Origin: an uncultured Lachnospiraceae bacterium
GTDB lineage: Bacteria; Bacillota; Clostridia; Lachnospirales; Lachnospiraceae
Direction of reading: 5' to 3'
NCBI GenBank assembly: GCA_902766175.1
Contig: CACXCJ010000037.1
Span: forward strand, 1-32,936
DNA: 32,936 bases
The position numbers and the translations under genes were made by a program. Positions 1,270 to 32,936 of this stretch are shown here, piece after piece. Under the pieces are notes generated by a model. It ran no database searches and was not told the origin of the DNA. It saw only the letters and a program-made list of their open reading frames with translations. Every line of letters begins with the position of its first letter. The stretch's first letter is position 1.

Positions 1270-2168
1270 ACAATCCGAACAAGAAGCGCCTTAGAAGAAC
1301 CATGATGTTCCTGAACGCGCAGAAGCCGAGCCTGATCAAGGACCCCTACATCTATAAGCCGGATTCCATCATGCTGGACCTGGAGGATGCCGTCGCGGAG
1401 AATCAGAAGGACGCGGCGAGATTCTCCCTGTACCACGCGCTGAAGGAAATCGATTACCGGGGATGCGAGCGCGTGGTCCGCATCAACGGCCTTGACACGG
1501 ACCTCTGGAAGGAGGACATCCGCGTCTCCGTCGCGGGCGGCTGCGACGTGATCCGCATTCCGAAGACCGAGACCGCGGAGCAGGTCCGCGCCGTCGAGGC
1601 GGAGGTCGCGAAGGCGGAGAAGGAGTTCGAGCGCCCGGAGGGGAGCACCCTCATCATGGCGGCACTCGAGTCCGCGAAGGGCGTCCTGAACGCGCTCGAG
1701 GTCTGTGAGTCCTCCGAGCGGATGATCGGCATTGCGCTCTCCGGCGGCGACTACACGAAGGATCTCCAGACCCACATCACCGGCACCGGCGTGGAGCTCC
1801 AGGGCGCCAGGCAGCACATGATCATCGCGGCGCGCGCGGCGGGCGTGCAGTGCTTTGACACCGTGTTCACGAACCTGAACGATATGGAAGCGTTCCGGAA
1901 GGAAGTCGAGATGATTCATCTCATGGGCTTCGACGGAAAGTCCATCATCAATCCGCGCCAGATCAACATCGTCCACGAGATCTTCACGCCGTCGCAGAAG
2001 GACATCATCTTCGCGGAGAAGGTGGTGCGCGAGATCGATTCCAAGAAGGCACAGGGAATCGGCGTGTTCACGGTGGACGGCAAGATGATCGACATCGCCT
2101 TCTATGACGGAGCGAAGAGAACCATTGAGCTCGCCAAGGCATCCGGCGTGTATAAGGGGGACTTATAA
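1266..2168 (+). CDS. citE: Citrate lyase beta subunit (citryl-ACP lyase)
   Basis: 300-residue CitE, the HpcH/HpaI-type TIM-barrel subunit that cleaves citryl-S-ACP to acetyl-S-ACP and oxaloacetate, with Mg2+. Recognisable segments: RRTMMFLNAQKPSLIKDP near the N-terminus, IMLDLEDAVAENQKDAAR (around residues 40-58, acidic metal-site region), VVRINGLDT, LESAKGVLNA (around 145) and FDGKSIINPRQINIVHEIF near residue 230. Length matches the family. The start overlaps the citD stop by four bases; citF starts one base after its stop, so the three genes form one tightly coupled operon. Confidence 0.95.
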   Translation: MNNPNKKRLRRTMMFLNAQKPSLIKDPYIYKPDSIMLDLEDAVAENQKDAARFSLYHALKEIDYRGCERVVRINGLDTDLWKEDIRVSVAGGCDVIRIPKTETAEQVRAVEAEVAKAEKEFERPEGSTLIMAALESAKGVLNALEVCESSERMIGIALSGGDYTKDLQTHITGTGVELQGARQHMIIAARAAGVQCFDTVFTNLNDMEAFRKEVEMIHLMGFDGKSIINPRQINIVHEIFTPSQKDIIFAEKVVREIDSKKAQGIGVFTVDGKMIDIAFYDGAKRTIELAKASGVYKGDL

Positions 2169-2169
2169 T

Positions 2170-3732
2170 ATGATCAACGCGGTAGGAAGAGATATCCCGG
2201 AGGAGATCCTGAAGCTTACCGGCAAGCAGGTCTTTCAGGGGACCCATCATTTCGACGGAACGGAATTCAGGAAGGACGGCCCGAAGACGAAGGTCGTCAT
2301 TAACTCAGACGGCTCGAAGCTCGTCGGGAGCATCCGGGAGGTGCTCGAGAAGTGCGGAATCAGGGACGGCATGACGCTCGGCTTCCATCACCACTTCAGA
2401 AACGGCGACAAGGTCGTGAACATGGTCATGAAGGAAGTTCATGACATGGGCATAAGGAACATCACGATCTGCGCCTCCTCTCTCGGCTCCCAGAACGACC
2501 CGATCCTTCCCTATATCGAGGACGGGACCATCACGAACATCCAGTCCTCGGGCGTCCGCGGGAAGATCGGCGAGGCGATCTCGAACGGGAAGCTCAAGGG
2601 TCTCGCGATCATGAGAAGCCACGGCGGCAGAGTCCGCGCGGTCGAGAGCGGCGAGACGCACATCGACATCGCGTTCATCGGCGCACCGACGGCGGATGAG
2701 TACGGAAATCTCGCGGCAAATGGCGGCAAGGCGAACTGCGGCGTTCTTTCCTACTCCGCAGTCGATGCGCAGTTTGCGGACCGGGTCGTCGCGGTCACGG
2801 ACTGCCTGGTTCCGTTCCCGAATCTCCCGGCGCAGATCACGCAGACCTACGTCGACTATGTTGTCGTCGTGGACGAGATCGGCGATCCGTCGAAGATCGC
2901 GACCGGCGCGGCGAAGCCCACCACGGACCAGAGAAAGCTCCTCATGGCGCAGTACTGCACCGATTTCGTCGTGCACACACCGTACTTTAAGGAGGGCTTC
3001 TCCTATCAGACGGGTGTCGGCGGCGCGTCCATCGCTTCGACGATCTCTCTCGCAAAGATCATGCGCGAGCGGAACATCCATATGGCCTGGGGCTGCGGCG
3101 GCATCGCAAAGCCGATGTGCGAGCTCCTGGAGGAGGGCCTCATCGGAAAGCTCGTTGACACGCAGGACTTCGACGAGTACGCGATCGGCAGCATCGAGCG
3201 GAACCCGAATCACTTCTACATCACGGCGGGCGAGTACGCGGACCCGTTCAACAAGGGCGCGTACGTGAACAAGCTCGACTTCGTCATCCTGGCGGCGCTC
3301 GAGGTGGACGTCCACTTCAACTGCAACGTCGTCGTCGGCAGTGACGGCGTGATCACCGGCGCACAGGGCGGCCACCCGGATACGGCAGCGGGCGCGAAGT
3401 GCACGATCGTCATCGCGCCGATCATGCAGGGCAGAATCCCGTCCATCTGCACGGACGTGACGACCGTCACGACGCCGGGCGAGGATGTGGATGTCGTCGT
3501 CACCGACTACGGCATCGCGATCAACCCGAAGAGACAGGACCTGATTGACGCGACAAAGGACGCAGGGCTTCCGATCAGGACGATCGAGGAGCTGCGCGAC
3601 ATCGCGTACTCCATTGTCGGCGAGCCGGAGAAGGTTCAGTTCGGGGACCGCGTGGTCGGCATCATCGAGGCGCGCGACGGCACGGTGATGGATGTGGTCC
3701 GTCAGGTGAAGCCGTTTGAATTTAAGAAGTGA
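2170..3732 (+). CDS. citF: Citrate lyase alpha subunit (citrate:acetyl-ACP transferase)
   Basis: 520-residue CitF, the CoA-transferase-like subunit that swaps acetate for citrate on the acyl carrier protein. Starts MINAVGRDIPEE; contains GFHHHFRNGD (around residue 75), SSGVRGKIGEAIS, the GAPTADEYGNLAANGGKANCGVL block around residue 175 and a C-terminal CTDVTTVTTPGEDVDVVVTDYGIA stretch characteristic of the family. The start at 2170 follows the citE stop directly; earlier in-frame codons lie within citE. No citC, citX or citG follows: a terminator and an opposing gene come next, so apo-enzyme maturation must be supplied from elsewhere. Confidence 0.95.
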   Translation: MINAVGRDIPEEILKLTGKQVFQGTHHFDGTEFRKDGPKTKVVINSDGSKLVGSIREVLEKCGIRDGMTLGFHHHFRNGDKVVNMVMKEVHDMGIRNITICASSLGSQNDPILPYIEDGTITNIQSSGVRGKIGEAISNGKLKGLAIMRSHGGRVRAVESGETHIDIAFIGAPTADEYGNLAANGGKANCGVLSYSAVDAQFADRVVAVTDCLVPFPNLPAQITQTYVDYVVVVDEIGDPSKIATGAAKPTTDQRKLLMAQYCTDFVVHTPYFKEGFSYQTGVGGASIASTISLAKIMRERNIHMAWGCGGIAKPMCELLEEGLIGKLVDTQDFDEYAIGSIERNPNHFYITAGEYADPFNKGAYVNKLDFVILAALEVDVHFNCNVVVGSDGVITGAQGGHPDTAAGAKCTIVIAPIMQGRIPSICTDVTTVTTPGEDVDVVVTDYGIAINPKRQDLIDATKDAGLPIRTIEELRDIAYSIVGEPEKVQFGDRVVGIIEARDGTVMDVVRQVKPFEFKK

Positions 3733-17530: not shown

Positions 17531-18487
17531 ATGGATCACAGAATTATCTGCGTAGGTGAAACCATCGCTGACTTATATGCATACCCGATCAGCCAGGTTG
17601 CCCTCAATGCGGATTATCACCTTCTTGAGAGCTTTCAGGTAAGAACCGGCGGGGATGCCCATAACAATGCGGTGGATCTTGCCAGCCTCGGCGAAGAAGT
17701 GATTTATGTGGGACCCATAGGGGACGATTTTTTCGCGGAAAACTGCCTGGCGTCAATGAAGGATGTGGGGATCAACACAGATCATGTGATTCGCTGCCCG
17801 GGCAAGGAGCAGACAAAATCACTGATCCTTCTAGGAAAGGACGGAGGCCGGACCTTTTATCAGCTTTTTGAGACAAGCCAGGCGTTCAGGGAAGAGGACA
17901 TTGACCTGTCCGTATTAGATCATGCAGATTTTCTGGAAATAGGCGGAACGTTTCACATGACGCAGTTTGACGGGGAAGGCGCGCGGAAGCTCCTGGAAAT
18001 ATGCAGGAAAAAAGGAATTGTCACAGGCATGGATGTGACAATGGACAGAACGGGAAGGTGGGGAGAGATCATCGAATCCAATTACCCGTATCTGGATTAC
18101 TTTTTCCCCAGCATAGAACAGGCAGTGGAACTCACTCACCGCAGCAGCATTCCGGATATGGCCGCATTTTTCCTGGAGCGCGGGGTCGGGCATGTCGTGA
18201 TTAAGGCAGGTGATCAGGGGTCCTTTTACATGGATCATCAGCAGTCCGTTCAGTGTGGATGCTATAAGGTAGCCGTAAAGGACACTACGGGAGCGGGAGA
18301 TGCTTTTGTGGCCGGGATGATCTATGGAATTGAACATAAATATGATATCCGCAGATGCATGACATTTGCCACAGCCTGCTCCGCCCTGGTGATTCAGGAT
18401 ATAGGTGCAACTGCCGGCATTCGCAGTCTCTCCCAGGTGCAGAGATTCATCGAAGAACATGGGGAGCCTGCTGTATCGGTCTCATAG
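17531..18487 (+). CDS. PfkB-family carbohydrate kinase
   Basis: 318-residue ribokinase-fold kinase that phosphorylates a sugar, keto-sugar or sugar acid with ATP. The N-terminal substrate region has VRTGGDAHNNAVDLASLG (~37-54, the PfkB GG motif), then VGPIGDDFFAE (~60-70). The C-terminal signature TTGAGDAFVAG has catalytic D257. The ATG abuts the aldolase TAA with no gap, implying coupled expression. Kinase plus class II aldolase resembles the IolC/IolJ step for 2-deoxy-5-keto-gluconate or the LacC/GatY step for tagatose; I cannot choose between these from sequence alone. Confidence 0.9.
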   Translation: MDHRIICVGETIADLYAYPISQVALNADYHLLESFQVRTGGDAHNNAVDLASLGEEVIYVGPIGDDFFAENCLASMKDVGINTDHVIRCPGKEQTKSLILLGKDGGRTFYQLFETSQAFREEDIDLSVLDHADFLEIGGTFHMTQFDGEGARKLLEICRKKGIVTGMDVTMDRTGRWGEIIESNYPYLDYFFPSIEQAVELTHRSSIPDMAAFFLERGVGHVVIKAGDQGSFYMDHQQSVQCGCYKVAVKDTTGAGDAFVAGMIYGIEHKYDIRRCMTFATACSALVIQDIGATAGIRSLSQVQRFIEEHGEPAVSVS

Positions 18488-18555
18488 TGGGAAGACTCTG
18501 TGAAGTGATCTGTAAAATGTGGATGCTGTATCAATCCATTTATAAGGAGGAAAAT

Positions 18556-19635
18556 ATGAAGAGAAAGAGTTTGGCAATTCTGACAGTCACTGCATTAACG
18601 TGTGGAATTATTTCCGGATGTGGCGGAAGTACACAGACAGCGACATCGGCAGCTGCCTCTGCGGAGAGCACAGCGGCTGAAACGAGCGCGGCAGAAAGCG
18701 GAGCGTCTGAAACGGCCAAATCTGCGGAAACTTCGGCAGCAGCCTCTTCATCCTGGAAACCCGAGAAGGATCTCAGTGCCATTGTTTACTGGGGAGCAGG
18801 CGGGACAACAGATACATGCGTGAGAGGTGTTATCAATTCCATTCCGGAAGGTGAGTTAGAAAAGAATATTATTGTTTCCAATGTGGCAGGCGGTTCCGGA
18901 CTGGTTGGATTTCAGCAGTTTATGAGTGCGGATGCGGATGGCTATACGATCGGCGTTTATAACTGCGATATGGTTCTGAATTACGTACTGGGAAATACGG
19001 ACATTGATTCGTCAAAGATTGTTCCGCTGGCATGCATTGAGCAGGATCCTTATCTCCTGATTGTCAAGAAGGATGCGCCATACGACACCTTTGAGGAGTT
19101 TGTTGATTACTGCAAGGAACATCCGGGTGAGGTTTCCATCGGGGATACCGGTTCCGGCGCCGTGCCGCATCTGGTTTATACGGCACTGAACAAAGGCCTC
19201 GGGCTTGAAACCTCTACCGTAGCATATGATTCTTCGGGAGATAGTGTCATTGCAGTGGTGAGTGGAGAGTGCACGGCAACGGTTGCCGCACCCGGCGTTG
19301 CAAAAGGACAGCTGGATGCAGGGGAAGTGAAGGCTCTTGCGTGCTCCGGACAAAAGAGGCTGGATGCGTATCCCGATGTTCCGTGTATGAGTGAGCTCTA
19401 TGATGAGATCAGCGACATGAATATTCTGAGCTGGATTACCGTCTGCGTCAAGGAAGGAACCCCGGATGGAGCCGTTTCGTATCTGCAGAAAATCTTCCAG
19501 GACGGCGCTGCATCGGATTCCTATAAGGAAACGCTGCAGGGATTTGGATTCCAGAGCGTACCCGCAATGGATCATGATGAGATGCTGAAGTTTGTGGCGG
19601 ATCAGCAGGCCTACTATGAGAGTGTTGCGAAATAA
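18556..19635 (+). CDS. tctC: Tripartite tricarboxylate transporter substrate-binding lipoprotein (TctC/BugD type)
   Basis: 359-residue extracytoplasmic binding protein. A lipoprotein signal peptide ends in IISGC with lipidated Cys22, followed by a long Ser/Ala/Thr/Glu linker (~25-70), then the Bug fold: DLSAIVYWGAGGTTDTCVRGVINSIP (~75-100), VSNVAGGSGLVGFQQFMSADADGYTIG (~110-137) and IGDTGSGAVPHLVYTAL (~195-212), typical anion-binding loops. Ligands of this family are carboxylates. AAGGAGG sits 5 nt before the ATG. It lies 68 bp after the kinase and is followed by a hairpin that may raise its yield relative to the membrane subunits. Confidence 0.92.
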   Translation: MKRKSLAILTVTALTCGIISGCGGSTQTATSAAASAESTAAETSAAESGASETAKSAETSAAASSSWKPEKDLSAIVYWGAGGTTDTCVRGVINSIPEGELEKNIIVSNVAGGSGLVGFQQFMSADADGYTIGVYNCDMVLNYVLGNTDIDSSKIVPLACIEQDPYLLIVKKDAPYDTFEEFVDYCKEHPGEVSIGDTGSGAVPHLVYTALNKGLGLETSTVAYDSSGDSVIAVVSGECTATVAAPGVAKGQLDAGEVKALACSGQKRLDAYPDVPCMSELYDEISDMNILSWITVCVKEGTPDGAVSYLQKIFQDGAASDSYKETLQGFGFQSVPAMDHDEMLKFVADQQAYYESVAK

Positions 19636-19675
19636 CCCGTATTCAGAAGGCAAAAGAACATAGAGTGATTTGTTT

Positions 19676-19699
19676 TAGGCCGCCATCCCTGGCGGCCTA
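19676..19699 (+). other. Stable intercistronic hairpin between tctC and tctB
   Basis: TAGGCCGCCA-TCCC-TGGCGGCCTA is a perfect 10-bp stem with a tetraloop. On the plus transcript it is followed by A residues, not U, so it is not a normal terminator for this operon. Such hairpins after binding-protein genes commonly protect the upstream mRNA from 3' decay. Confidence 0.7.
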
Positions 19700-19725
19700 A
19701 AAAAGAATGATTTCTGGGTGAGAAC

Positions 19726-20184
19726 GTGAAAAAGTACAATATCTTATGTGCGGTAATTTTCATTATCATAGCGGTGGGAATATTTGCGAGCGCTTCTACC
19801 CTGCCGCCTGGCTCACAGAACAGTATCGGAGCAGGGGACTGGCCAAAGGCTCTGTCAGTGGTTTTGATTCTGCTTTCTGTTGTTTTGATGATTCAGAGTC
19901 TGCGATCAGGTGACGTAAAAGAAAATGCCGCGGATTTTTCGATACATACGGAAAATTTCAAAAAAGTCCTGTCAGCGATTGCGATTCTGGCCGGATTCTG
20001 CCTGCTGCTGTACCTGTGCGGCTTTGTCATTGCCTCCTGTTTTATGCTTCCATGTGTGATGGTTCTTATGGGAGAACACAGGGCTAAGGTATTTATACCG
20101 CTGACGGCATTTGTTGTGATCTTCATTTATGTGGTTTTCTCAATTTTGCTGAAATTAGCGTTACCTAAGGGAATATTATTCTGA
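19726..20184 (+). CDS. tctB: Tripartite tricarboxylate transporter small membrane subunit TctB
   Basis: 152-residue protein with four hydrophobic segments: ~3-24 (ILCAVIFIIIAVGIFASAS), ~43-58, ~82-105 (AIAILAGFCLLLYLCGFVIASC) and ~125-148. The GAGDWPKAL segment (~36-44) after the first helix is the usual TctB pattern (small, PxxP/W-type turn). Start codon is GTG at 19726 with GGGTGAG upstream. It lies between tctC and tctA as expected and partners the large subunit TctA in carboxylate uptake driven by ion gradients. Confidence 0.88.
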   Translation: MKKYNILCAVIFIIIAVGIFASASTLPPGSQNSIGAGDWPKALSVVLILLSVVLMIQSLRSGDVKENAADFSIHTENFKKVLSAIAILAGFCLLLYLCGFVIASCFMLPCVMVLMGEHRAKVFIPLTAFVVIFIYVVFSILLKLALPKGILF

Positions 20185-20203
20185 GTGTTGAGGAGTTATC
20201 AAA

Positions 20204-21703
20204 ATGATGAGTTCGATGATTGCAGCGCTAGGGGTGGTGTTTGCTCCGGGGAATGTGCTTTTGATGATGCTCGGCACGCTTCTTGGCATTTTTATCGGGG
20301 CCATGCCTGGATTATCCTCCGTGATGGGGCTCTCGATCATGATGCCGCTGACCCTTACCATGAAGGGCGCATCCGGGATCCTCATGCTCCTTGGGCTGTG
20401 GTGTGGTGCAATTTACGGCGGTTCCATAACTGCGATATTGATTAAAACGCCAGGCACTGCCAATTCAGCAGCAACTACATTGGACGGCTATCCCATGGCG
20501 ACAAAGCTCGGCCAGCCGGGGCGGGCGCTTGGAATTTCCACGATGGCTTCGACCTTTGGAGGAATTTTTTCCGCCATTATGCTTTTGTGGATTTCCCCTA
20601 TTCTGGGCAGGTTTGCGTTGAAGTTCGGAGCGCCAGAATATTTTGCGCTGGCGGTATTTGGCTTGTCTATGGTTACGAGTATCTCTGCGAAGAACGTGAC
20701 AAAGGGGCTGATCAGCGCCGTGATTGGTCTTATGATGGCGACAGTGGGAATAGATTCCCTGACCGGGCAGCAGCGGTTTACGTTTGGAACGGTTTATTTT
20801 ATGGGCGGGATCGCGATGATTCCAGTATTAATTGCCCTGTATGCGTTTTCCCAGGGACTTCAGAACATTGAAGCTGGAAATGATGGAGGGAATAAGCGTA
20901 CCACACAGAAAATTAAACGCATTCTTCCGACGTGGCAGGATACAAAAACTGTCTTTCCGACGATGCTTCGATCCAGCATTATCGGTACTGTAATTGGCGC
21001 GATTCCCGGTACCGGCGGTGACATAGCATGCTGGGTGGGGTATAATGAGGCTAAACGGGTTTCCAAGCATAAGGATCAGTTTGGAAAAGGCGCTCCGGAA
21101 GGAATTGCGGCACCGGAAGCGGCAAACAATGCCATTTCCGGAGGAGCACTCATTCCGCTGCTCACTCTGGGAATTCCGGGAGATGCAGGCACCGCAATTA
21201 TGCTGAGTGCGCTCATGATGCAGGGCATTGTTCCCGGACCGCTGCTTTTTCAGACACAGGGAGAGACCGTTTATACGGTTATCATGGGGATGTTTCTGGC
21301 GAATATCTGTATGTGTGTCCTCGGCTTTCTGGGCCTCCGGGGGTTCGCAAAGATCGGAGAAATCTCAAACACATATCTCACGCCGATTGTCTTTGCGTTC
21401 TGCGTCGTCGGTACTTATGCGGTGAACAATAACATCGGGGATATCGTCCTGATGATGGTTTTGGGAGTGATCTCGTTCTTTCTGATCAAGCTGGATTTCC
21501 CGATGCCTCCCGTTATACTGGGACTGATTCTTGGAAATCTGGCAGAAAAAAATCTTCAGAGATCGCTTGTTTTGTCTCACGGAGATGTTACGATTTTTTT
21601 CCGCAGACCGATTTCGTGTATTTTGATCGTAATTTCATTGGTTTCGATTTTCTGGCCGCTATTGAGGAAAATGGCAGAAATGCTGGCGATGAAGAAAAAG
21701 TGA
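20204..21703 (+). CDS. tctA: Tripartite tricarboxylate transporter large permease TctA
   Basis: 499-residue permease, full family length, about twelve membrane spans. Typical segments: GIFIGAMPGLSSVMGLSIMMPLT (~29-51), YGGSITAILIKTPGTANSAATTLDGYPM (~70-97), IGAIPGTGGDIACWVGYNEAKR (~265-286) and PEAANNAISGGALIPLLTLGIPGDAGTAIML (~302-333). The two PG-containing inverted motifs are the hallmark of this family. The start follows tctB by 19 bp (ATGATG; the first is used here). Together with TctB and TctC it forms a complete transporter; the DeoR gene starts six bp after its stop. Confidence 0.95.
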   Translation: MMSSMIAALGVVFAPGNVLLMMLGTLLGIFIGAMPGLSSVMGLSIMMPLTLTMKGASGILMLLGLWCGAIYGGSITAILIKTPGTANSAATTLDGYPMATKLGQPGRALGISTMASTFGGIFSAIMLLWISPILGRFALKFGAPEYFALAVFGLSMVTSISAKNVTKGLISAVIGLMMATVGIDSLTGQQRFTFGTVYFMGGIAMIPVLIALYAFSQGLQNIEAGNDGGNKRTTQKIKRILPTWQDTKTVFPTMLRSSIIGTVIGAIPGTGGDIACWVGYNEAKRVSKHKDQFGKGAPEGIAAPEAANNAISGGALIPLLTLGIPGDAGTAIMLSALMMQGIVPGPLLFQTQGETVYTVIMGMFLANICMCVLGFLGLRGFAKIGEISNTYLTPIVFAFCVVGTYAVNNNIGDIVLMMVLGVISFFLIKLDFPMPPVILGLILGNLAEKNLQRSLVLSHGDVTIFFRRPISCILIVISLVSIFWPLLRKMAEMLAMKKK

Positions 21704-27014: not shown

Positions 27015-27863
27015 TCACCCCACCTCCTGGATCAGCTTCATGCTCTCCGAGCGGATGATGTCGCTGCAGTGCGCGCGGTAGTTCACGAATTTCTCCGTGT
27101 TCCGCACGTGGTAGTCCCGCGGCCGCTCGAGGTCGATGTCGACAATTTCCTTGATGCTGCCCGGCCTTGCGCTCATGACCACCACGCGGTCCGCGAGGAA
27201 AATCGCCTCGTCGATATCGTGCGTGACCATGACGATGGTCTTCGGGGAGCTCTGCCAGACGTTCAGGAGAAGCTCCTGCATCACCCCTCTGGTCTGCATG
27301 TCCAGCGCGCCGAACGGCTCATCCAGGAGAAGCATGCCGGGATCCGTCGCCAGAGCCCGCGCGATTGCGACACGCTGCTTCATGCCGCCGGAGAGGGACT
27401 TCGGATACTGCTTTTCAAAGCCGCGGAGACCGACGAGATCCACGTAGCGGCTCACAATTTCCCGGATCTCTGCGGGCGGATGCTTCTTCATCTGCCGGAG
27501 GCCGAAGGCGATATTTTCCTCGACCGTGAGCCACGGGAAGAGGGTGTAGGACTGGAACACCATGCCGATATCCGCGTTCGGTCTCGTGATTTCCTCGCCG
27601 TGGAAGTAGATGTGTCCGGTCGAGGGGCGGTCGAAGCCGCCCAGCATGCGGAGAAGCGTGGATTTGCCGCAGCCGCTGGTGCCGAGAATCGAGACGAACT
27701 CCTTGTCGCGGATGTGGAGATTGACCGGCTTGAGGGCCTGTACGGTTCTTTCCCTGGTGACGAACTTCTTAGTGACATCAATGATATTCACGCCGTCGGG
27801 CATGCTCTCCTCCGAGAAGCCCTCCGCCGGATCTGTTTTCCTTGCTGCGCTGCTCTCTGTCAT
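27015..27863 (-). CDS. ABC transporter ATPase, nitrate/sulfonate/taurine type
   Basis: 282-residue ATPase of the SsuB/TauB/NrtD group energising uptake through the adjacent permease. Walker A GTSGCGKST (~60-68), Q-loop GMVFQSYTLFPW (~99-110), signature LSGGMKQRVAIARAL (~156-170), Walker B MLLLDEPFGALD (~176-187) and H-loop VTHDID. The start at 27863 is preferred over an ATG at 27878, because AGGAGG lies between the two with ideal spacing to the inner one. It is the last gene of a binding protein-permease-ATPase operon; 28 bp separate it from the permease. Confidence 0.93.
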   Translation of the reverse strand: MTESSAARKTDPAEGFSEESMPDGVNIIDVTKKFVTRERTVQALKPVNLHIRDKEFVSILGTSGCGKSTLLRMLGGFDRPSTGHIYFHGEEITRPNADIGMVFQSYTLFPWLTVEENIAFGLRQMKKHPPAEIREIVSRYVDLVGLRGFEKQYPKSLSGGMKQRVAIARALATDPGMLLLDEPFGALDMQTRGVMQELLLNVWQSSPKTIVMVTHDIDEAIFLADRVVVMSARPGSIKEIVDIDLERPRDYHVRNTEKFVNYRAHCSDIIRSESMKLIQEVG

Positions 27864-27891
27864 TAGGCGCCTCCTCATTCTTCTGTTCTGT

Positions 27892-28818
27892 TTATTCCTC
27901 GTTCCACGGGAACAGGGCTTTCTTCAGGTAGAGCATCATCATATCCAGTCCGAGACCGATGAGGCCGATGGTGATGATTCCGACGAAGATCTTCGAGATC
28001 ATGAACTGACGGCCGGCCTGCGTGATCATGAATCCGACGCCCTGCGAGGCGCCGATCATCTCGGCGACGATGATGTAGGTCCACGCCCATCCGAGAACCA
28101 TGCGGAGCGTGTCCATGATGTCGGGCATTGCCTTCGGGAGGATCACCTTCCAGAATACTCCGCCTCTGGATACGCCGAGCGTGTAGGAGACCTCAATCAG
28201 AGAGACGCTGACGTTCCGGACATTCGTCGCAGTCATGAGGATGATCTGCGCGAGGGATCCGACAATGATGATTGCGATCTTCGAGCTCTCGCCGATTCCG
28301 ATCCAGAGAATGAAGAGCTGGATGAAGGCGGAGGCGGGAAGGTAGCGGGAGAAAGAGAAGAGCGGCTCAAACCACGCCGCGATGGGCGCGTAGGTGCCGA
28401 TCAGAAGACCGAGCGGGATTCCGACGAGCGCGGAGATCGCGAAGCCGATCAGAACACGCTGTACGGACATGCGCACATCCAGCGCAAAGTTGTTTACGGT
28501 GATCAGAGTGACTGCGGACTTCAGAACCCGCGCGGGAGAGGGCAGGAACATCGAATCCACCTTCAGCACGTAGCAGGCGAAGCACCACAGAAGAAAGATG
28601 ACACCGAAGGAAGCAATGGCGAGCGTGACGTAGGAGCGGGTGGAGATGCTTCCCTTCGGGATGAATGCGTCCGCAATCCTGCTTTCCCTTGCTCTTGCTG
28701 CCGGCTTGATCCGCCCGGCAGCGCTGCCGGTTTTTCTGACAGCGCTGTCTGCGGAGCGATCCTGCTTCAGTGTCTGCGATTCTCCAAGATTCATCGATAA
28801 AATACTGTCCTGTGTCAT
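27892..28818 (-). CDS. ABC transporter permease, SsuC/TauC type
   Basis: 308-residue binding-protein-dependent permease. A long hydrophilic Arg/Ala-rich N-terminal stretch (~1-60) precedes six membrane helices starting near residue 65 (LAIASFGVIFLLWCFACYVL). The EAA coupling loop is visible at ~215-235 (IEVSYTLGVSRGGVFWKVILPKAMP). The N-terminal 60 residues are longer than usual for the family. GGGGGA precedes the ATG. Encoded between the binding protein (73 bp upstream) and the ATPase, forming a complete importer. Confidence 0.93.
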   Translation of the reverse strand: MTQDSILSMNLGESQTLKQDRSADSAVRKTGSAAGRIKPAARARESRIADAFIPKGSISTRSYVTLAIASFGVIFLLWCFACYVLKVDSMFLPSPARVLKSAVTLITVNNFALDVRMSVQRVLIGFAISALVGIPLGLLIGTYAPIAAWFEPLFSFSRYLPASAFIQLFILWIGIGESSKIAIIIVGSLAQIILMTATNVRNVSVSLIEVSYTLGVSRGGVFWKVILPKAMPDIMDTLRMVLGWAWTYIIVAEMIGASQGVGFMITQAGRQFMISKIFVGIITIGLIGLGLDMMMLYLKKALFPWNEE

Positions 28819-28891
28819 AAGAATTCCCCCTTACTGACTGGCTGAAACTCTGTTTTCCCTGCGGCCTGGTTCTGTGTCCTCGAAAGAAGGA

Positions 28892-29995
28892 TTACTCGGT
28901 GCCGCCGATGAAGCTGTCGTTGATGAATGTGGACGGGTCCACCTCGTTCTCGATGAGGCCGTACTCAAGCCACAGGTCGTTCGCGGACTTGCAGATATCC
29001 ATGATGTCGTTCTTGTAGTAATCCTCGTTTGCCGCCTTGTCGTAGAACGTGACGCCCGCGAGCTCGCCCTCAAGTGCTTCCGTCGTCTCGTCTCCGGTGT
29101 ACTTCATCATGATCTTGTAGGCGTCCTCCGGGTTCGTCTTGATGTAATCCAGCGCGTCATACCAGCCCTGCACGATCGCCTTCACGGTTCCCGGATACTG
29201 CTTCACAAAGTTACTGTCCATTGCGAGCGCGTCGACAATGATGCCCGGATAGTCAGAGGAATCTACAAGCACGGTGCCGTTCTCCGTCTCTTTCGCTCTC
29301 GACAGCCACGGCTCCCAGGTCGCTGCTGCATCGACCTGGCCCGCGACGAATGCCGCGCCGGCGTCTCCGGAGGACATGTTCTGGACCGTCACATCCTCGA
29401 GCTTCATGTTGTTCTGCTTCATGAGATACAGGGTCCAGAAGTAGGAGGCACCGCCCGTCGTGTCCATTGCGATGGTGTGTCCCTTCAGGGACGGGAAGTC
29501 CGGAATACTCTTCAGGGCGCAGATACCGTCGCCGCCGCTGGAGGTGTCCTCTGCGAGGACGACCTGGATATCCATTCCGGAGGAGACGCTCATGACGTGC
29601 GCGTCGAGCGTTGTGGACATGCCCTGAATTCTGCCGGCCGCGACTGCTGCGCGGGAGTCCGCCTTCGACTCGAAGGCCTGAATATCGACATCCGCCCCGT
29701 GATTGTCAAAGAAGCCCATATCGTCCGCGATGTTCAGCGGCACATATCCGATCCAGGAGGAGTGTCCGAGGATCACCTTGCCGTCGTACATCGCGTCGCC
29801 GGAGGCCCCGCTGCTCTCGGAGGCGCTGCTTCCCGCCGCCGTTGTGGCTGCCGCAGTCGTCTCCGCCGCGGTTGTCTCCGCTGCGGCCGATGCTGCCGCC
29901 GCTGTGGAACCAGAGGAAGAGCCGCCGCAGCCGCTCATTGCCGCGCATACAAGTGCTCCAGCTGTCAGCAGTGCCAGATTCTTTTTCTTTTTCAT
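28892..29995 (-). CDS. ABC transporter substrate-binding lipoprotein, SsuA/NMT1-like
   Basis: 367-residue periplasmic-type binding lipoprotein. Signal peptide with lipobox MSGC and lipidated Cys23, then an Ala/Thr/Ser/Glu linker (~24-65). The ligand-binding core has LGHSSWIGYVPLNIADDMGFF (~75-95), AGRIQGMSTTLDAHVMSV and KGHTIAMDTTGGASYFWTLYLM, the usual NMT1/SsuA pattern. Relatives bind sulfonates, nitrate, taurine, pyrimidine precursors or other small anions; the ligand here is not predictable. AGGAGG lies 8 nt before the ATG. It is the first gene of the operon and is preceded by a structured leader of about 220 nt that contains an intrinsic terminator. Confidence 0.92.
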   Translation of the reverse strand: MKKKKNLALLTAGALVCAAMSGCGGSSSGSTAAAASAAAETTAAETTAAATTAAGSSASESSGASGDAMYDGKVILGHSSWIGYVPLNIADDMGFFDNHGADVDIQAFESKADSRAAVAAGRIQGMSTTLDAHVMSVSSGMDIQVVLAEDTSSGGDGICALKSIPDFPSLKGHTIAMDTTGGASYFWTLYLMKQNNMKLEDVTVQNMSSGDAGAAFVAGQVDAAATWEPWLSRAKETENGTVLVDSSDYPGIIVDALAMDSNFVKQYPGTVKAIVQGWYDALDYIKTNPEDAYKIMMKYTGDETTEALEGELAGVTFYDKAANEDYYKNDIMDICKSANDLWLEYGLIENEVDPSTFINDSFIGGTE

Positions 29996-31533: not shown

Positions 31534-32936
31534 TCAGAGCTCGCGTCCCAGCTTCTCCTCCACGAGCCGGATCAGCTCGCCGGAGTGGATGAAGTTTCTC
31601 AGGTAGACGATGTACGGATACAGGTACTGATCCTGCTCCAGAATCGGGACGTGCTTTTCGATCTCCTCGATCACGGCCTGCGTGACAGGAGAGCGGGAGA
31701 CACTCGGATCGCGGAACTGCTGGCCCTCATAGGCGGAGAGCAGCTCGATCGCGAGGATGTACTCGAGCTTCTCGGCGACGAGAATGGATTTCTTTGTCGC
31801 GTTGTAGCCCATGGAGACATAGTCCTCCTGGTTTCCGCAGGTCGGCACGTTGTCGATTGTCGCGGAGGTGCTGAGCGTCCGCATGTCGTTTAAGAGGCCG
31901 GCCTGTGCATACTGCGGGATCATGAGGCCGGAGCTCAGGCCCGGATTTTTGATGATGAACCAGGGAAGTCCGGAGAGGGATCCGTCGATCAGACGGTTGT
32001 TCCTGCGCTCGGACATCTTGGCGAGCCCCACGGAAGCAATGCACGCGGAGTCCATCGCCATGCCGACGTAGGAGGCATCCGCGTTGCACGCGGAGATCAC
32101 GTCCTGATGCCCCTCTTCCGGCCAGATGATCGGGTTGTCACAGCAGGAGTTCACCTCGGTCTCGAGAATGTCCAGCGCGTTCTTCAGCATCTGGCAGGCG
32201 GAGCCGTGCAGCTGCGGGATGCAGCGGAGCGAGAGCGCGTCCTGCACGTGGGTTCCCGCGTATTTTTTCATGAGCTCGGAGCCAGCCAGGATGTCGCGGA
32301 CATTTTTCGCGACCTGCGCCTGCTCCGGGTGCGGACGAACCTTCATGACGCGCTCATCGAAGGCGTTCAGGAGACCGCCCGAGACCTCGAGCGTCATGGC
32401 GCCGATCACATCCGCGGAGCGCGCTGCCTTGATCATGTCGTAGAGGCCGAGGCAGGCGAGCGCTGTCGGGGACGTGGTCCCGGAGACGAGCGCCAGCCCC
32501 TCCTTCGCGGCGAGCGTGATGGGCGAAAGCCCCGCGCGGGAGAGCGCCTCCTTTCCTTCCAGAAGCTCCCCCCTGTAGTACGCCTTTCCGCGTCCGATGA
32601 GGACGAGCGCCATGTGGGCCTCGGGACTTAAGTAGCCGACGGAGCCCTCCTTCGGCGCCCACGGTGTGAGGCCGCGGTTTAAGAACTGACGGTACTGCTC
32701 CAGGACCAGCAGGCGGACGCCGCTGTAGCCCTGACCCAGGTTCTGCAGGACCATGACCATGACCGCGCGCGCCTCTTCCTCGGTGAACGGCTCTCCGACA
32801 GAGACGGAGTGCGAGAGAAGAATGTTTTCCTGAAGCTTTGCCGTGTCCTCCCGGCTGATCGCCTTCGAGCAGAGCGCGCCGAATCCGGTCGTGACGCCGT
32901 ACATGACGCGGCCCTCATCCACCCACTTCTCCACAA
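31534..32936 (-). CDS. Histidine/aromatic ammonia-lyase homologue lacking the MIO tripeptide (5' end beyond right edge)
   Basis: About 467 codons visible; perhaps the first ~40 residues are outside. Family landmarks: [13 protein letters not shown] near the start, [41 protein letters not shown], and [17 protein letters not shown] leading into [13 protein letters not shown]. True histidine, phenylalanine and tyrosine ammonia-lyases carry [14 protein letters not shown], where Ala-Ser-Gly cyclises to the MIO electrophile. Here it reads [11 protein letters not shown] (around 32611-32646), missing three residues with no frameshift. Other changes: the Asn of the NGT motif is Ser (SGTT, codon 32482-32484), the Tyr of QDPYSLRC is Leu, and the GNFH loop is CNAD. 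The fold is retained but MIO chemistry is not expected. Function unknown; it is not safely named hutH. Confidence 0.85.
   Translation of the reverse strand, partial: [466 protein letters not shown]

Follow-up and report, generated by a model that had tools for sequence, protein, structure and literature searches.

The window, a stretch of 32,936 nucleotides, covers contig C37 from end to end; the assembly consists of 144 contigs (95.33% complete, 5.98% contaminated). At its right edge, an open reading frame on the reverse strand (32934..31534) reaches a stop after 466 open codons and runs off the window; the gene is therefore cut, and its first codon corresponds to residue 49 of a homologue read in another assembly (L036). 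The window also holds a citrate lyase alpha subunit gene (2104-3732), a TctC and TctA pair of a tripartite tricarboxylate transporter (18355-21703), and, on the reverse strand, an ABC transporter set made up of an NMT1-type binding protein, a permease and an ATPase (27015-29995). The features of the cut gene are given below, with homologous positions numbered according to the histidine ammonia-lyase (HAL) of P. putida, a numbering used throughout, and with counts referring to the 46 group proteins described further on.

31534..32934, reverse strand: MIO-free lyase gene (predicted hercynine trimethylamine-lyase), 466 codons and stop, 5' end missing
32899..32901, reverse strand: Tyr12, HAL Tyr53, kept (from the alignment; catalytic base in HAL)
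32809..32811, reverse strand: His42, HAL His83, kept (from the alignment; at the imidazole in HAL)
32614..32646, reverse strand: loop replacing the MIO segment, with Tyr101 at the ASGD site and Glu105 at HAL Leu149 (from alignments)
32482..32484, reverse strand: Ser151, HAL Asn195 (NGT to SGT); 27 of the 46 proteins have Ser here (from the alignment)
32233..32235, reverse strand: Leu234, HAL Tyr280 (PYS to ALS); 34 of the 46 proteins have Leu here (from the alignment)
32224..32226, reverse strand: Arg237, HAL Arg283, kept (from the alignment; binds the carboxylate in HAL)
32077..32079, reverse strand: Asp286, HAL position 330 (from the alignment)
31921..31923, reverse strand: Met338, HAL Met382, kept (from the alignment)
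31825..31827, reverse strand: Glu370, HAL Glu414, kept (from the alignment)

The encoded protein is a member of the aromatic amino acid lyase superfamily (PF00221), scoring 510.3 bits against a gathering cut-off of 27.3, and lies below the hutH equivalog threshold of TIGR01225 (476.6 bits against 539.15). A sister protein (L028:9435-10967) is above the PRK09367 cut-off (539.6 against 524) and likewise below that of hutH. HAL of the HutH type (TIGR01225, PRK09367; 1b8f) is 37% identical to the window protein, with a TM-score of 0.93 to its model. Tyrosine and phenylalanine ammonia-lyases and aminomutases, which are MIO-dependent, share the superfamily and the fold and gave lower phmmer scores than HAL. 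A structural model built from 51 sequences had a mean pLDDT of 91.8 (an earlier model was weaker, 80.1) and matched P. putida HAL with a TM-score of 0.92-0.94 and ergothionase with 0.89. Three other PF00221 genes in the genome of the window carry the tripeptides Ser-Ser-Gly, Ala-Ser-Gly and Ala-Cys-Gly; the first of them (L001, G000:C38), in which Ser-Ser-Gly replaces Ala-Ser-Gly, also has Asp at the position of HAL His83.

In the window protein, the MIO segment GSVG-ASGD-L reads GSVG-Y-L, a single tyrosine standing in place of ASGD with a net loss of three residues. The earlier note had described a clean, in-frame deletion of the ASG tripeptide within a frame intact over 460 codons, and both statements were borne out. 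As the gene runs to the end of a contig in an assembly of 144, an assembly error or a decayed gene was considered. We rejected both, leaving them next to no weight, since the same loss is common to 46 distinct proteins in 39 loci and the frame is open throughout. Furthermore, the L036 homologue is 77% identical and has the same deletion, and over 464 codons the two genes differ at 83, 57 and 222 sites at codon positions 1, 2 and 3, respectively, a pattern indicating constraint on the protein and not decay.

The best 80 matches listed by a scan of public genomes gave 78 loci, which were aligned with relatives from whole-genome searches. The resulting 106 sequences comprised 46 with Y for ASGD (39 loci), three of the ergothionase type, 55 with the MIO tripeptide and two fragments. 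Because the 46 proteins were chosen by their loop (GSVGY in 41, GSVAY in four and GSLGY in one), the deletion they share reflects this selection, and the real test is whether any MIO sequence falls inside their group in a tree. Trees were computed after removal of the MIO loop and of columns 326-334. In the tree of 90 rows, from which 14 of the 106 rows and the two fragments were omitted, the 43 loop members placed all fell into a single group, which had full support and contained no MIO sequence. A second tree, of 46 of the 106 rows, again recovered its 21 loop members as one fully supported group free of MIO sequences. With midpoint rooting, the group sits among the histidine ammonia-lyases. 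These placements agree with the earlier proposal of a separate lineage, and the close homologues that it had named as a possible refutation, with ASG in place, were not found within the group.

Seven alignment columns mark the group: each is at least 93% fixed within it, and at least 80% of the MIO sequences share a different residue there. Four are those of ASGD. At column 149, Leu (51) or Met (4) of the MIO sequences is replaced by Glu in 46/46 group sequences; at column 330, His, present in 55/55 MIO sequences, gives way to Asp in 45 and Glu in one; and at column 335, Ala (53 MIO sequences) becomes Gly in 45 of the 46. Formation of MIO from a different tripeptide was ruled out for the group, as 46/46 sequences have gaps at both 143 and 144. 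Judged from the alignment, MIO catalysis is impossible in the window protein, as the note had held. The further substitutions that it listed, including SENK to NDMR (LLNDMRTL), are all present in the window; nevertheless, the changes of NGT to SGT and PYS to ALS do not extend across the group, in which Asn195 is retained in 18/46 and Tyr280 in 7/46 sequences.

On the other hand, Tyr53, His83, Gln277, Arg283, Met382 and Glu414, which HutH and the window type both hold, are unchanged in 46/46 group sequences. In P. putida HAL, Tyr53 is the catalytic base, Arg283 holds the carboxylate, and His83, Met382 and Glu414 lie at the imidazole side of the pocket. Compared with HutH, the window type is without MIO, has Asp for His330 and Glu for Leu149, and scores under the equivalog cut-off. 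We read this combination as an enzyme that has lost its cofactor, kept its pocket for an imidazole amino acid, and gained a tyrosine and two acids near the exit of the amine.

MIO makes an amine into a leaving group, and a trimethylammonium group already is one. We propose, with a probability of about 0.58, that the window gene encodes an MIO-free lyase converting hercynine to urocanate and trimethylamine. Hercynine (N-alpha-trimethylhistidine) would be the most likely substrate: Tyr53 would take the beta-proton, and trimethylamine, being already a quaternary ammonium, would depart without an electrophile from a pocket formed by Tyr101, Glu105 and Asp286, while the urocanate would enter the histidine pathway. 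An enzyme acting on a betaine could do without MIO while retaining the base and the pocket for the ring, and could gain charges to accommodate the cation. A precedent is already known in ergothionase, and the group itself is, by its loop, a variant with a different deletion. The earlier suggestion of different chemistry or a binding role is supported in part; given the ergothionase precedent and the kept Tyr53, His83, Arg283, Met382 and Glu414, we favour a lyase whose substrate has a better leaving group over a protein with a binding role.

Gene neighbourhoods were compared between 41 group loci and 41 HAL loci by searching genes within 5 kb with a panel, as simple gene calling had picked some antisense frames in GC-rich loci. 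The window, L054 (on the contig of L030), L053 (on that of L133) and the fragments L064 and L076 were left out of the counts. A betaine/carnitine/choline transporter (BCCT) was found near 14/41 group loci and 0/41 HAL loci (Fisher p 3.2e-5, a value that overstates independence since some of the loci, such as L037, L038 and L099, are close relatives). The panel was built from group loci, with the ordinary gene in L108 for HutH, and may favour them in this and the following comparisons. Sigma-54 activators lay near the lyase in 14/41 group loci and major facilitator (MFS) transporters in 10/41, each against 0/41 HAL loci; in 11/41 group loci, no transporter of the four types in the search was found. 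HutU was rarer in the group than at HAL loci (10/41 and 21/41), and so was HutI (8/41 and 20/41). Together with the new acids, the BCCT genes near 14/41 loci suggest a cationic leaving group.

The same evidence counts against a reading in which another modified histidine is the substrate of an MIO-free lyase with some other leaving group, or of a mutase-like enzyme. The residues kept in the pocket would suit such an enzyme, and in the genus of the window one group locus (L029:9883-14889, G003) has, instead of BCCT, a dicarboxylate-type symporter, a serine-dehydratase-alpha protein and a GntR regulator; we regard this reading as quite improbable.

The nature of the product is suggested by the hydratases. 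All those scored from ten group loci (nine and that of L030, with L137 scored as well and those of L060, L066 and L068 not included) were above the urocanate hydratase cut-off, and 0/10 reached the thiourocanate hydratase cut-off (NF058530). Three of the ten loci (L041, L050 and L108) also carry an ordinary HutH, which may be the owner of the hydratase there. Hydratases near some members suggest urocanate as the product, pointing to hercynine, the histidine betaine that would give it. In a Halobacillus locus (L051), the order is regulator-BCCT-lyase-HutU-HutI-HutG, an operon for histidine use in which the MIO-free lyase occupies the usual slot of hutH; a second PF00221 gene lies elsewhere in that genome. 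In genome G032 (97% complete), each of the three PF00221 genes is MIO-free, and all are clustered together with BCCT and HutU. Loss of the cofactor could also be expected of a non-catalytic protein that binds a ligand or regulates, a reading made very improbable by the catalytic residues present in 46/46 sequences and by the position of the L051 lyase. At L047, the gene next to the group lyase encodes an MttB-type methyltransferase, which could take up the trimethylamine; an MttB gene also lies near one ordinary HAL (L088).

A substrate other than hercynine is suggested at some loci. Two or three group members stand side by side in six (L028, L030, L039, L040, L042 and L046), and sister copies within one locus may use different betaines. 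Furthermore, a homologue of N-methyl-L-tryptophan oxidase lies near 7/41 group loci, all of the Bacillaceae type (L055-L058, L060, L062 and L063) and all with an MFS transporter nearby; the one scored, from L057, passes the cut-off of its model. Other betaines are therefore possible for these loci, and the group might consist of trimethylamine-lyases for aromatic betaines of tyrosine, phenylalanine or tryptophan, with substrates varying by subgroup. Nevertheless, His83, Met382 and Glu414 are present in 46/46 sequences and urocanate hydratase genes lie near some members, and we consider this reading unlikely for the window gene, for which hercynine is preferred.

Ergothionase provides the closest comparison in chemistry. 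According to a 2026 paper, this enzyme works without MIO, releasing trimethylamine from ergothioneine with thiourocanate as the product (PMC13405746). The T. denticola enzyme (6s7j/6s7q) shares the fold of the window protein as modelled (TM 0.89) and, like the window type, has no MIO, an acid at 330 (Glu), Leu at 280 and Ser at 195. The window protein might thus be a divergent ergothionase, and the genomic context offers some further support: in L039, an ergothionase-type lyase adjoins two group members, and in G320 an ergothionase-type lyase (L137; loop GSVGEADIACLSHI, Glu at 330) has as neighbours BCCT, molybdenum-hydroxylase subunits and urocanate hydratase, a gene set much like that of the group locus L030. 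Because of this likeness, the L137 lyase may itself also act on hercynine. However, the window protein is only 25-26% identical to 6s7j, and the loops were shortened differently, to GSVG-Y in the window type and SSIG-EGD in T. denticola (Y across the group against EGD or EAD in the ergothionase type). The group has Met382 and Glu at 149, whereas the T. denticola enzyme has Gly and Leu at these positions; the ergothionase-type sequences aligned have Gly or Ser at 382, with Glu at 330 and Leu at 280 in 3/3. In addition, the ten hydratases of group loci lie under the thiourocanate hydratase cut-off, and G003, of the window's own genus, holds both a group lyase and an ergothionase of the T. denticola type (L034:7545-9059; 6s7j E 6.1e-203). 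We therefore consider a trimethylamine-lyase for ergothioneine improbable, and hercynine remains the preferred substrate. The L034 stretch also encodes a binding-protein-dependent permease and a hydroxylase that binds molybdopterin.

In both trees, the ergothionase type, whose stem is long, stands apart from the loop group, and in the set of 46 sequences the two were joined in 0/200 bootstrap trees. Nevertheless, a single clade of the two MIO-free groups was not rejected by the AU test (p 0.46, log-likelihood difference 1.55). Separate losses of MIO in the two groups are thus favoured on the bootstraps, but the AU test, which allows joining, leaves them unproven.

The operon of the window gene appears to continue on another contig of the same genome. 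On C90, a second group lyase gene, a BCCT gene and the N-terminal piece of another group lyase follow on one strand; this piece, at the very end of the contig, covers 43 residues from the start of the protein and matches L036 residues 3-46. The remaining N-terminal matches in this genome fall in its four other long-open lyase frames, and the absent 5' end of the window gene appears to sit at the end of C90. The window gene and its partner probably form a lyase-BCCT-lyase operon under a sigma-54 activator, an order that we infer across the contig gap, since no overlap of at least 8 bases was found between the ends of C90 and C37. The BCCT gene would accordingly stand beside the probable 5' end of the window gene. 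Upstream of the second lyase gene on C90 are a divergent sigma-54 activator gene and an intergenic site, TGGCATACTATTTGCT, the only match with one mismatch on that contig; a general scan for sigma-54 sites there gave six matches against 6.49 expected, without excess. A urocanase-family gene of this genome is on C139, and the operon as assembled shows no HutU. A sigma-54 gene lies within 5 kb at 14 loci, and regions picked by hand were inspected at 13 of them (all but L047). Sites resembling the -24/-12 element were found upstream with at most two mismatches in 12/13 and at most one in 10/13; L131 was the one without such a site.

The group is scattered. Record names place its members in Bacillota, Pseudomonadota, Actinomycetota, Thermodesulfobacteriota and Bacteroidota. 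Within its own family, the window type is uncommon, occurring in 5/299 sampled genomes (its own included) at E <= 1e-120, a cut that is not clean, as one of two phylum matches (G150) is an ordinary GSLGASGD enzyme. In an NCBIfam scan of eight group proteins (that of the window and seven others), one passed a histidine ammonia-lyase cut-off and none matched a group-specific family, and a plasmid-borne member with the loop GSVGYLAVEGH is annotated as histidine ammonia-lyase. No mention of a hercynine lyase or of hercynine degradation was found in the open-licence literature, and among the papers listed there on hercynine with trimethylamine and on MIO-less enzymes none dealt with this group, though subscription papers may describe it. 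According to the 2026 paper, ergothionase occurs in few bacterial genera, and ergothioneine, on human supplementation data, adds little to trimethylamine N-oxide; the underlying search began from one Burkholderia ergothionase sequence and, by the paper's own words, leaves divergent homologues unaccounted for (PMC13405746). Hercynine, according to a review, is the main metabolite in volunteers who had taken ergothioneine (PMC7653990). If the proposed reaction is true, some proteins annotated as histidine ammonia-lyase would release trimethylamine from trimethylated histidine, a microbial source of trimethylamine that would have gone unrecognised until now. More tentatively, at somewhat less than even odds, we suggest a scattered and undescribed family of hercynine trimethylamine-lyases that lost MIO apart from ergothionase, both having exchanged His330 for an acid, and that is hidden among HAL annotations as an uncounted source of trimethylamine. 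The family also allows one to ask when MIO is needed, as the leaving group would have changed and the cofactor perhaps been dropped, with seven columns marking the change.

A third type of loop lacking MIO, GSVGLSDLGPMSEL, was found in L138, L124 and L125 (G157 and G224), whose proteins are 36-37% identical to the L034 ergothionase. This type keeps His330 in 2/2 sequences checked, so that an acid at 330 is not general among MIO-free relatives.
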